This document shows, one piece after another, positions 33,659 through 38,181 of a stretch of DNA of 38,181 bases. The position numbers and the translations under genes were made by a program. The DNA comes from Paraglomus occultum (taxonomy: Eukaryota > Glomeromycota > Glomeromycetes > Paraglomerales > Paraglomeraceae), in assembly GCA_910592205.1 (NCBI GenBank), contig CAJVPJ010000166.1:1-38181 (forward strand), given 5' to 3'. The stretch's first letter is position 1. Every line of letters starts with the position of its first letter. The notes under the pieces are model-generated. The model did no database searches. It was not told the DNA's origin and worked only from the letters and a program-made list of their open reading frames with translations.

Positions 33659-35028
33659 ATGTCTGGGCATTTACGCAACAAAATCCTCGTTCTTGGTCGC
33701 CGTGGTGTGGGAAAGCTTTCTCTTGTAAAAAGTAATTGCTTATTCAATGCCCAGAAACCTTTTCGTTTTCGTTTCCATTCATTGTTTGATCAATTGATTT
33801 TAGAAATTCTGGAATTAACTTCGCAAGAGTTTCGAGCTCATGAACCAAATAATCATTCTGGTCTAAAAGTTCCATGGAATATTACAACAAGATATTACGT
33901 CGCGGACGTTCTTTTTTGGATTGAGGAAACTGATGATGTTAATCAACAAATCCTCGATGAGTATATGGACGAAGAGAACGGTATTGGGCGTGTAGTGGAT
34001 GCAATAATCTTTGTCTTTCAAAAAGATAAGGTTGTTCTTATATGGATGGTGCACACCTTCGAAACTAAAGTCCTTCGAATGACCAGTCGTTTACACGCAA
34101 GTACTGATTTGTGTTTTAAATACGTACAGCCTACAAGTTTTGATGATATAAAGATGTTTCTGCCGTTTTTCCAGAAATATGAGCCTTCGATACTGCTTGC
34201 TGTTGGTTCTGGCACTTCTGTGCTGGATCCTGAAGATAATGTGTATAATTCCTGGTGTTTGAGTAATGGATTTGAGTACATTGATTTGGAAGTAAGTCCA
34301 TCAGTTTCTGATGGTAGGCATATGTTACTTGTCCACAAAACCGTCGTCCATCACGAAATAAGTCTCTGAGCTTAATATCATGCATGTGATTGCAATAGAG
34401 TCCGCAGGATTGATGCGGATACTTGAAGCTTTACAGTCACACGTTTGGGATGGATTTCAAAGGATACAGCAGAATGAAATAAGAGACAACGAGGCTTATT
34501 TGGATTCTAACGCCGAGACAGGTCAGTTTATAGCAATGTTGATAGACTTAAGCGTTATGGTTACATGATGTTGTTTAAAAGAAACCTTATTGCCACAGAT
34601 CCAAGACGTTTTATCCAAGATATGAATCCATTATCCCTTAATCAGAATGCTGATGAAAACGTTGAATTATTTGGAGATAGTAAGTTTGTTTAAGCTTTCT
34701 CTCCTTTCGTATGTTTGTAGTTTTCAGTGGTTTATATGCATTCTTTCAGTTCTTCCAACCGAAGCTGAACTTGACTTAATACGTGAGCAACTCTTTGGAG
34801 ATCTTGATGATGATGATGGCTTAGATAGGGTTCTTACGCGGTTGCACAGTTTGAGAGGTATTTTTTCGTTTTAACAATATGATGGAATACATGTACCCAA
34901 CTGTCTATTAATATCTATAACGTGTCGTGTTTGTAGAACGAGGACAGTCTCTTCCTGATGATGAACGGAGAAGGTTAGCAGCAAGTGTAGCTTGGTCTTT
35001 TGGAATGCAGTTCGGCGGTTTGAGGTAA
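33659..35028 (+). CDS. AAGAB/p34 (Irc6)-like adaptin-binding, Rab-like protein
   Basis: Seven exons (33659-33731, 33804-34030, 34130-34291, 34401-34521, 34599-34679, 34750-34857, 34937-35028) give 287 residues (human AAGAB 315). The family binds the alpha and gamma adaptins of AP-2 and AP-1 and assists adaptor assembly in clathrin traffic; yeast Irc6 is the counterpart. Visible: MSGHLRNKILVLGRRGVGKL, a P-loop-like GTPase start; LKVPWNITTRYYVADV; AIIFVF in the Rab-like core; ILLAVGSGTS; GFEYIDLE; then RILEALQSHVWDGF and an acidic C-terminal helix region (EAELDLIREQLFGDLDDDD) ending DDERRRLAASVAWSFGMQFG, as in the family. The first two introns lack in-frame stops, so naive translation reads through them; the spliced version matches the family better. 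The exon 4 acceptor (atagag|TCC) is the least certain. Confidence 0.85.
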
Positions 35029-36989
35029 CAGGGGACTACTGACAACACAGCGAAATTGTTGTATAGTACTTTTCGTAGTAATATTATCTCTTGTAATATG
35101 TAATTGAGTCGTCTATGGATTTGAAATAAATGCGACGACCATAACACGTTACTCTCTTAGTTGGTCTAGTGAAGAAAACATCATTGATAGGTATATATTT
35201 CGTTATGTTGGGGGCCGGTTTTTGGATCATTATAAGATATAAGGAGATATTTTTGGAGATTTTCGGGAATTAAATATTCTTGAAGATTTTCAATTTCGGT
35301 TGAAACTTATTTTGGTTTACTATACAAAACCAAAGTCCGAGTTTATTTCTATATTTATTTGATGAAGGAGGCAGCCGAGGAAAACATGACGAAGGAGCAA
35401 AAGCATGATAAAATTTTTTGGTTACTTCGACCTATTTAAGTCACTGTTGCTTCAAAATTTTTACTATTACCTATCTATTCTGGACAAACGCGTGTTTGTT
35501 TAATATGTATAATGAATCAATTATAATTAATGATTGTAAGAGTACCTATGGCTAAAAGGGATTGTTGGTAATATTCCGGAGAATATTAATTATAAACGTA
35601 CAAACAATCAAAGCATACTATCCTGCTGAAACAGATGGCCCTTACCATTGAATTCCTTATTTATTATCAAAGACACTAGATGTTTTTTCCAGTGTCTGTA
35701 TGTAATCTAATCTACTTATTTTACCTCACCTTTACCAATCTTTTACCTGAAAACTCACGTTTACAATACTAAATCTAGTGCCAGAGTCCTTCCGTCAAAT
35801 ATTGTAGTTTTGCTTTTCACAGTCCAGTTTCTTTCTTAATGCACCATATTCTCTTTGCTGATAACTAAGGAGGTTAACACGTAAGAAAAAATTTTCATTG
35901 TGAGCAAATTTCTTAGTACAAACTTCGATACTGGTTTTTTCAATAATAATAAATTCTTTTTCATTTGCTCGGCAAAAATTTCCTGTTTTTGTTAATGTAC
36001 TTTATGATGGTACGAGAGACGGTTGTTCTATGAACTGTGGTTGATCATCATTCAGTTAAGCTAGCAGGCGTTAAATGATTTATATATTTAATGTTCTTAT
36101 GTTTACTTACAAAAACACACGTGTCTGGCCAAAGCAAGATTACGTGTATTAATATTAACAGATTAAATTTTGGATTACGATTTTGTGCAATTTATAAATT
36201 TGGGATGTGAAATACTTTTGCCCGGGCATTGATTTATAGTAAATTATAAAGAATTGCAATATTGATGTAATTACGTTTCTTTAAAAACACATCGACCAAT
36301 TTGCCTTACTATTACGATCTTTTGTTAAATTGTTTGATTGTCGTACGATTCATTATTCCGCCGATTGCCTTAGCTGTCTACAGTTGTCATCTGCGGATTT
36401 GTTGAAGCGATGGCTATTTAGAAAATTGCGTAACGTTGGAGCTTTGATAAAAAGGATTGTAAGTTAGGTAACCACAAAGAATAGAATCATTGATTTGAAT
36501 CGATGCAATGATTCAAAACAACAATTGGATGATTGAGCAAAGAACAAAACGATTGAATATTTGAATTTGTTGATAGTCAAAACAATTGGGTTTGCCAAAA
36601 AAAACATATGGTGAGTCACTTCAAAAGTAAATGGAACATTAGACGTTATTAGAGACACTAATTTTTCTTTTATTAATATTATTCATATTTGTTATTCGTA
36701 AATTTGATTGGACGACTTTCCCTATAGTGCATGGATGCCCTTAAATGTCGTGACTTAGACTTATATATAAAGTAGACAGTAATATGGGGCAGACTGCAAC
36801 AAAACCAGACAAAGTGAACATTCTATAAATGTGGGACTGTTTATGGTGTGGCTGTAAAATTAACCAGTGTGACTCACGATGTTTTGCCTTGTTAATTTTA
36901 ATGCTCCCTTTATCATACCAATGGGATGATTATAACAATAAACCATAACAGGATTAATATAGGATTATCTCTATATATAAAAATATTAA
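35029..36989. other. AT-rich stretch with no supported gene
   Basis: Only short AT-driven frames. The part near 35200-35440 has repeat-like wording (a GA-rich stretch around 35366-35405), but I cannot show a second copy within the window. Confidence 0.4.
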
Positions 36990-37250
36990 TATGAAACTAA
37001 TTTACATCAAATCCACTATGGAACCCAAGAATTACAGCACCATAGAAGTATTTTAAAGAAAGCTCAAGGAGAAAAAATTGCTCCCTAGGTTTTAAAATCA
37101 ACAATACTAATACTCAAACACTCCAGGCATATCTAGATCAAGAAAAATTACATATGAGATTTATCCAGAAGAAAGGAAATTATAACTAATAAATGAACAT
37201 TAACACCAACTTATGATGAACCAAAAAAGAAAAGAAGACTGGCAGAATAA
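36990..37250 (+). pseudogene. Mollicute-code protein fragment, frame-broken, TGA read as Trp
   Basis: Three overlapping plus-strand pieces join by single-base frame slips. The first (36990-37088) includes HYGTQELQHHRSILKKAQGE. The second (37088 to about 37146) includes KINNTNTQTLQAYLDQEK. The third starts ITYEIYPEERKL and, after one more slip, reads ITNKWTLTPTYDEP and KKKRRLAE to TAA 37248-37250. The Trp in ITNKW is a TGA (37194-37196). Lys/Glu-rich, AT-biased wording and TGA at a Trp-like position suggest origin from a genome using translation table 4. No family recognised. Confidence 0.45.
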
Positions 37251-37265
37251 ACAATCAAACCATTA

Positions 37266-37325
37266 TTAATTATCCTCCTCATCCTCATCCTCTTCTTCTA
37301 GTTCAGCAGGGGAGTTTCATCATTG
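37266..37325 (-). pseudogene. Acidic C-terminal fragment with tandem TGA read as Trp
   Basis: The minus strand reads Q-W-W-N-S-P-A-E-L-E-E-E-D-E-D-E-E-D-N and then TAA, where both Trp are TGA (37320-37322 and 37317-37319). An acidic tail of this kind is common at bacterial protein ends (for example single-stranded DNA-binding proteins), but the ending here does not match the SSB tip. Another minus-strand frame just upstream reads FSAWAAGGGIRLLL with TGA as Trp. Confidence 0.35.
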
Positions 37326-37362
37326 AGCCAGGAGTTTTCTTTTCCAGCTCAACCAAGACTAC

Positions 37363-37819
37363 TTAGTAATAAACGAATTCCTCCTCCAGCTGCTCAAGCA
37401 GAAAAATTATTAATTTTCAGAAACCTTCTTGTTTATTATCCTCAAAAGGCTTTTCATATCGCTTCTTGCCATGATTTTGTCCACCTAACTTTTCTGCATA
37501 GTACTTAATGATTCCTTCTTCAGTAAATTCTTTCCCATCTCCATATTTAGATTTATCTAGCCTTTTGTCACCATCTTTGTAATCTTCCATCTCTTTCAAA
37601 ATTTGTTTTTGGAGATTACTATCTGCCTTGATTTCCTGTAAATATAAAGCAATAGTCTCTACCACTATTTCAGGGTCTCAAGTAAAGAATCAATCTAATC
37701 AATCTTGATTTTTATCCTTGGGATCAGGAAGATCATAAATATCATCAATTAACTCTAGTTTTTTAGCTAAAGTTTCTTTACAGTATTTAATTATGTTAGT
37801 AGTGTTGATTTTAGCTCCT
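37363..37819 (-). pseudogene. Bacterial (mollicute-code) ORF with in-frame TGA codons
   Basis: From about 37819 the minus strand reads GAKINTTNIIKYCKETLAKK, then LIDDIYDLPDPKDKNQD, then W-L-D-W-F-F-T-W-D-P-E where the three Trp are TGA at 37699-37701, 37690-37692 and 37678-37680. It continues IVVETIALYLQEIKADSN, MEDYKDGDKRLDKSKYGDGK and IIKYYAEKLGGQNHGKK to a TGA at 37417-37419, which could again be Trp before TAA 37363-37365. It is open for about 150 codons apart from TGA. Three TGA codons within 24 nt in an otherwise uninterrupted, protein-like frame are best explained by translation table 4. Function unknown; no intron signals needed. Confidence 0.6.
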
Positions 37820-38100
37820 TTACAATAACTTTATCAGCCAATTTTTTAATTTCATCAGCCTTGATTTTAAAATCAATATTTTGTGAATAAGCAAATCATT
37901 TTTAGTTAGATCACTAAACACATTAGTTTTGACTCCTAAGGCTGCTTTTAGTTCCATTGGAAGAATTCTCTTTTCAGGAGGAGTTGGACCATGCTTAATA
38001 TAGTGAGTGAGTTGATCTAACTCATTTTGTTCCACCAGATCTAATCCCCTTCCCACTGATACTGATTCTAAAGAATCTTTGATTTCACTTAAATAATTTC
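37820..38100 (-). pseudogene. Upstream part of the same mollicute-like coding region, frame-shifted
   Basis: The minus strand reads ARTVRNYLSEIKDSLESVSV, GRGLDLVEQNELDQLTHYIK, HGPTPPEKRILPMELKAALG and FSDLTK in one frame. It then slips to WFAYSQNIDFKIKADEIKKL (Trp again a TGA) and ADKVIVK, and slips once more into the frame of the 37819 fragment. The three pieces read smoothly as one protein of bacterial character, so this is a pseudogene with at least two frameshifts. The family is not recognised. Confidence 0.5.
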
Positions 38101-38110
38101 TTACTGTTCT

Positions 38111-38181
38111 GGCCCAAATTCAAATCCGGCCCGATCCACAATCGGGCCAGCCCGTTGTGCAATTTTGCTACGGGCTGGCCC
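38111..38181. repeat. GGGCC-rich fold-back repeat at the window edge
   Basis: GGCCCGAT (38128-38135) and ATCGGGCC (38141-38148) pair across a 5-nt loop. GGGCCAGCCCG (38144-38154) is the exact reverse complement of CGGGCTGGCCC (38171-38181). Its G+C content contrasts sharply with the AT-rich surroundings. It may be the end of an interspersed repeat that continues beyond the window. Confidence 0.7.

Follow-up and report, generated by a model that had tools for sequence, protein, structure and literature searches.

Putative terminal-inverted-repeat transposons with genes in a Mollicutes-type code on fungal contigs of Paraglomus occultum

The stretch of the Paraglomus occultum assembly analysed here, 38,181 nucleotides of contig CAJVPJ010000166.1 (the window), carries genes for EIF3I, a proprotein-convertase P-domain protein, a DNMT1-type protein and a FAD-binding protein. 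Toward its right-hand end lie the following features:

36785..36819, plus strand: terminal inverted repeat (TIR), outer 35 bases, at the left boundary of the element; an exact match to the TIR pattern, with flanks that differ outside it
36991..37250, plus strand: small ORF (MKLIYIKSTMEPKNYS..PKKKRRLAE), broken, situated within the long terminal repeat region; in the window copy a first stop comes after 21 residues
37266..38106, minus strand: putative cargo gene in which TGA is Trp, encoding a helical protein of which the C-terminal part is left, frame-broken and with its 5' side cut off, delimited by BLAST and tblastn to copies and by database relatives
37363..37830, minus strand: frame first described, 155 codons open under translation table 4, with 4 TGA and no TAA or TAG

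The preliminary description had reported a minus-strand frame of about 150 codons that stays open if TGA is read as Trp, and the frame is indeed present at the length listed above. Taken alone, such an open frame is weak evidence. In 60 first-order Markov simulations of the window, long table-4 frames (155 codons or more, three TGAs or more) numbered 3.0 on average (maximum 8), against 11 in the window itself; frames with three TGAs as tightly clustered as here numbered 0.12 on average (maximum 1), against 2. What makes the frame more than chance is homology among copies, which also shows that the gene extends past the open frame, with frame breaks, to about 37266-38106 and a stop codon at 37266-37268. 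Three of the four TGAs fall within the motif W-L-D-W-F-F-T-W, and all three had been taken for Trp codons. This holds for the first two, where TGA recurs across copies; the third is Arg or Gln in most copies, L010 being another with TGA, and in the window this TGA probably arose by later mutation and does not go back to an ancestral Trp.

We compared the window with copies elsewhere in its own assembly (32.3 Mb, 1408 contigs). A 922-base query found 25 matches, the window itself counted, and we examined 20 copy places (L009-L028). Similarity to the window begins at 36779-36782 and reaches at most 38106-38110; its left limit is the terminal sequence, beyond which the flanks of the copies differ. 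The 35-base TIR has 304 matches in the assembly (151 + 153) at up to three mismatches, and the reversed pattern, used as a control, has none (0 + 0). In L026 the repeat stands at both ends, inverted, and encloses a 1310-base element, as expected of a TIR DNA transposon; on these inverted repeats we dropped the idea of a LINE-like element with one sharp and one ragged end. A second element, of 1653 bases (L044:1328-2980, contig C170), also has both TIRs in inverted orientation; the sequence between them bears no relation to the cargo gene, which shows that elements differ in internal type. A TA stands at each flank of both elements. On contig C174 (L073, C174:27200-36100), facing TIRs with 419-base inverted ends lie 8.24 kb apart and enclose a DUF7869 gene, two further frames with TGA as Trp and a kinase-like frame written with TGG. 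We considered this pair as a complete 8.24-kb element and rejected the idea on the TGG-written frame inside it and on the lack of a duplication common to both flanks; it may represent two insertions.

If the cargo gene is a gene in which TGA means Trp, then TGA should stand at conserved Trp sites with TGG as its synonym, and this is the pattern that the copies display. The first Trp site of D-W-L-D-W is TGA in 15 of 17 aligned copies (TGT in L021 and TAC in L026; of the two alignments of L027 the better-matching one is counted, the other giving TGG), and the second is TGA in 14 of 15 (TAT in L026). Over the Trp columns of 21 sequences we counted 86 TGA and 14 TGG, with the remainder scattered, and 5450 non-Trp codons contain 38 TGA, 31 TAA and 9 TAG, a pattern as in decaying copies. 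Near-intact frames exist as well: 401 codons with 14 TGA in L017 and 325 with 10 in L016, both free of TAA and TAG. L050 has a long frame of 305 codons in which the only stops are 5 TGA. That TGG changed to TGA separately in each copy was rejected, as TGA stands at the same sites across copies and constraint (see below) exceeds that in neutral simulations.

A 584-residue read-through of L009, used as query for database relatives, matched 10 proteins. Those from ENA contigs of 1.5-2 kb (P0004-P0007), which were seen as proteins and not as contig DNA, have W wherever they span one of the TGA sites. Gene models from Funneliformis, Dentiscutata and Ambispora assemblies are missing the segments around the TGA sites, and a profile search yielded further models, from Diversispora eburnea and Funneliformis geosporum; judging by these gaps, the models P0008-P0013, P0019, P0020 and P0022 (Funneliformis, Dentiscutata, Ambispora, Diversispora) seem to carry false introns at TGA codons. 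The final residue of P0021 is W, and at this place L016, L017, L027 and L028 show a TGA followed by TAG, a hint that the ENA proteins were translated from TGA. One relative, P0006, finds 40 matches in the P. occultum assembly, many of them broken by TAA or TAG. The cargo protein is mostly helical and ends in a membrane-anchor-like stretch, WW and an acidic tail. The AlphaFold model of P0006 is likewise mostly helical, with a mean pLDDT of 59.6, insufficient for searching by fold. Sequence searches of Pfam, NCBIfam and PDB with the cargo proteins gave no convincing match, and two genome-contig scans and one viral-contig scan gave no confirmed relative, these scans using Trp-containing patterns that may miss TGA-coded genes.

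Elsewhere in the assembly the same terminal repeats border a further gene. Inward from the TIR of L041 lie a broken small ORF, a second frame with TGA as its only stop (262 codons, 7 TGA) and a gene for a DUF7869 protein. Contig C1 (146 kb; L052) again has a DUF7869 protein inward of a TIR, which is at 101060, in a frame open for 588 codons with 4 TGA and 1 TGG; the left TIR of this copy was looked for and not found. A 220-residue piece of the L041 protein has at least 152 matches in the assembly, from the best 150 of 399 candidates scored. The DUF7869 family has 44 matches there, of which 36 contain one or more TGAs and 22 have a single TGA as their sole stop; 14 control genomes have no match. 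By its position and copy number we regard the DUF7869 protein as a putative transposase; the literature searched holds no mention of DUF7869. Of the five Trp columns in nine copies, four contain TGA in some copies and TGG in others, and the fifth is TGA in all eight copies that cover it. The piece in the window is, as judged from sequence, part of a large transposon family whose putative transposase gene likewise has TGA as Trp, a context absent from the preliminary description.

The small ORF of the terminal repeats has at least 150 matches in the assembly, taken from the best 150 of 336 candidates scored. Across 117 pairs its median dN/dS is 0.13; among these pairs three places are counted twice (L018/L065, L016/L066, L064/L073). 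Among 32 rows examined, 11 of the 14 distinct full-length small ORFs end in a P[R/K]KK[R/K/Q][R/K] tail; tails such as PRKKRKL and PKKKKRL presumably resemble a classical nuclear-localisation signal.

The cargo gene and the putative transposase both bear marks of constraint. In-frame differences from the window copy amount to 0.163 at first, 0.131 at second and 0.252 at third codon positions, and the non-cargo remainder of the aligned element differs by 0.122, less than any cargo codon position. An excess at third positions appears in 103 of 105 copy pairs. Cargo dN/dS has a median of 0.45 (range 0.21-0.87, 97 pairs), whereas two neutral simulations gave medians of 0.78 and 0.82; these control for bias of the pipeline and not for true divergence, and they give 0.29-0.34 difference per codon position, more than the input mutation rate, as frame breaks misalign codons. 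For the putative transposase, dN/dS is 0.07-0.12 at a dS of 0.44-0.59 among the four best copies (L041, L046, L047, L048) and 0.07-0.38 over 28 computable pairs, with dS saturated in eight L052 pairs. Together with the TGA/TGG swaps, the third-position excess and these ratios suggest that the element genes diverged under selection as genes with TGA as Trp, with decay afterwards. Decay of the nuclear copies is apparent from their indels, 293 of 425 of which are not multiples of three.

Coding with TGA as Trp and insertion into fungal contigs are both well supported by these comparisons, and the piece in the window is best explained as a truncated copy of a TIR DNA transposon, in the Mollicutes code, in a fungal chromosome. 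Mollicutes-type coding next to fungal nuclear genes, as had been proposed, is therefore supported, and as to direction we favour transfer toward the fungal nucleus. We consider it probable, with real room for doubt, that a transposon family written in the code of an endosymbiont has inserted repeatedly into the fungal nuclear genome. Such a family would carry the DUF7869 transposase, the terminal-repeat small ORF with its Lys/Arg-rich tail and endosymbiont-type passenger genes with C-terminal membrane-anchor-like ends. As constraint on TGA-bearing genes needs TGA to be read as Trp, the natural translator would be the endosymbiont, and the constraint would act during expression there. The transposase, made by the bacterium, would cut and paste the element once bacterial DNA gets into the nucleus. 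Low dN/dS between copies on different contigs suggests that the nuclear copies are repeated arrivals, which would decay after insertion, as in the window. More tentatively, a eukaryote-type DNA transposon with TGA as Trp might reside in the endosymbiont and shuttle symbiont genes to the nucleus, aided by the small proteins of its terminal repeats.

The main rival to repeated insertion is that a TIR transposon took up endosymbiont genes once and then amplified within the nucleus, with dead passengers. A single capture of this kind would fit the one 3'-side architecture common to the copies, the same loss of the membrane-anchor region in several of them (the window, L014 and P0005 share LEEEFFYY ends), the near-identity of L010 and L018 with their little codon-position bias, and the many broken copies. 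We nonetheless think it rather unlikely as the whole explanation, as the near-universal third-position excess, a cargo dN/dS far below the neutral control, the low dN/dS of the putative transposase and its synonymous TGA/TGG swaps require that copies on different contigs diverged under selection with TGA as Trp. A mixture of nuclear amplification with repeated arrivals is likely.

An endosymbiont-type sequence is present in the same assembly. We read about 21 of the 79 kb of contig C16, as four pieces and one search locus (L051, L053, L068, L069, L070). This contig is gene-dense, has a GC content of 30-35% and long frames with TGA as Trp, and carries phage-type integrase, N6/N4 methylase, Prim-Pol, AIG1, LRR and PemK genes; it looks like a Mollicutes-type endosymbiont chromosome. 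Among its genes is a relative of the second cargo gene, a frame of 361 codons (31% identity, E 9e-7). The small ORF, too, has a relative there (63% identity), which is without the P[R/K]KK[R/K/Q][R/K] tail and lies directly before a PemK/MazF-type gene. The two (L068:2747-3656, C16:51246-52155) form a possible toxin-antitoxin pair, and given this position the transposon's small ORF may derive from an antitoxin, with the C16 ORF as its likely source. Neither TIR nor putative transposase was seen in the part of C16 read, which counts against the repeated insertion that we favour; C16 is also absent from the 100 listed zero-mismatch TIR places (of the 304) and from the listed transposase places, and in a comparison with two C16 pieces and one locus neither the window's cargo gene nor the putative transposase gave a convincing match. 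By an AIG1 search only, C1324, C1244 and C877 may be further endosymbiont-type contigs. Separately, a PemK/MazF-type fragment (PF02452, E 8.5e-8) lies beside a cargo-gene copy at L025:1014-1169 (contig C31).

If the copies are nuclear inserts, then their flanks should hold host genes in the standard code, as is found in the window and on C8, C581, C1227 and C1. The eukaryote-type genes on these copy-bearing contigs include an M16 peptidase (C8), a kinase (C581) and DUF726 (C1227), and on C1 the putative transposase has a TCP-1/cpn60 (CCT-type) gene on one side and Rax2 and SH3 domains on the other. It is improbable, then, that the pattern is an assembly artefact, with endosymbiont contigs joined to fungal ones or bacterial contigs taken for fungal. 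Such an error is conceivable in an assembly that contains C16 and for a copy at a contig end, as in the window, and endosymbiont contigs and contamination in Glomeromycotina assemblies are documented in the available portions of two sources (PMC10507103, PMC11423566). A plain join, as the preliminary description had allowed, is however a misfit to similarity that begins at a terminal repeat bounding many copies with different flanks, and an artefact of either kind is hard to reconcile with copies inside long contigs with eukaryote-type genes (C8, C1).

Translation of TGA as Trp by the fungus itself, in these particular genes, would explain the constraint without a bacterium. The EIF3I frame of the window, however, ends in TGA at position 323 of 324 of the profile, which makes it very likely that the fungus uses TGA as a stop, and relatives in the same code lie on a bacterial-type contig; we regard such nuclear recoding as very improbable. 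The confirmed fungal frames contain 45 TGG, which show only that TGG is used, as these frames were picked as open in the standard code. Fungal mitochondria also read TGA as Trp, and mitochondrial or mitochondrial-plasmid DNA had been suggested on that ground; this is the least credible origin, as no mitochondrial gene was seen in the loci read and relatives of two other element genes lie on the endosymbiont-type contig, beside phage-type integrase, N6/N4 methylase, PemK and AIG1 genes.

Several known systems share features with this family. Wolbachia-type nuclear inserts in insects (see also PMC12092117) are likewise bacterial endosymbiont DNA in a host nuclear genome; those are chance fragments, whereas the element here is a TIR-bounded mobile family with its own putative transposase and many places. 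Gene transfer has been reported between the same kind of partners, Mollicutes-related endobacteria and Glomeromycotina (PMC10507103, PMC5982333, both in part). The reported direction is from fungus to bacterium, and PMC5982333 places the donors of bacterial genes in R. irregularis outside the known endobacteria of this group; here, in contrast, transfer would run from bacterium to fungus, by transposon. With cut-and-paste TIR DNA transposons of eukaryotes the family has in common its terminal inverted repeats, high copy number and a transposase-like gene, and it differs from them in its Mollicutes code, bacterial-type cargo and DUF7869 protein. Fungal Starship transposons also carry passenger genes and are implicated in horizontal transfer (PMC11623301, in part); unlike those giant elements, the ones here are small, have TIRs and have a different putative transposase.

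We met with no account of transposons in a symbiont's code within a fungal nucleus in the literature searched (including PMC10507103, PMC11423566, PMC5982333 and PMC10386755), of which the coverage is incomplete and partly by excerpt, so that novelty is unproven. If the favoured reading of repeated insertion is true, then an endosymbiont's own transposon would keep a path permanently open by which bacterial DNA reaches the host nucleus. The genetic code of the symbiont would serve as a built-in tag of direction, by which fresh arrivals could be separated from nuclear amplification and endosymbiotic gene flow could be counted and dated. There would also be a warning for annotation, as fungal gene models may cut false introns at the TGA codons of these elements.

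Some smaller observations concern the sequence around the elements. ARAGORN predicted no tRNA, either in the window or in the 30 loci scanned, and an Rfam search of 34000-38181 gave no match. At the contig end, the truncated element adjoins a GC-rich palindromic sequence (GGGCTGGCCC / GGGCCAGCCC) in window positions 38107-38181. Short repeats of the type TCGGTGAAATGATTGTCGG occur at two unrelated places, L010:2000-2204 and about 3824-3990 of L017, where they sit between the cargo copy and the TIR.
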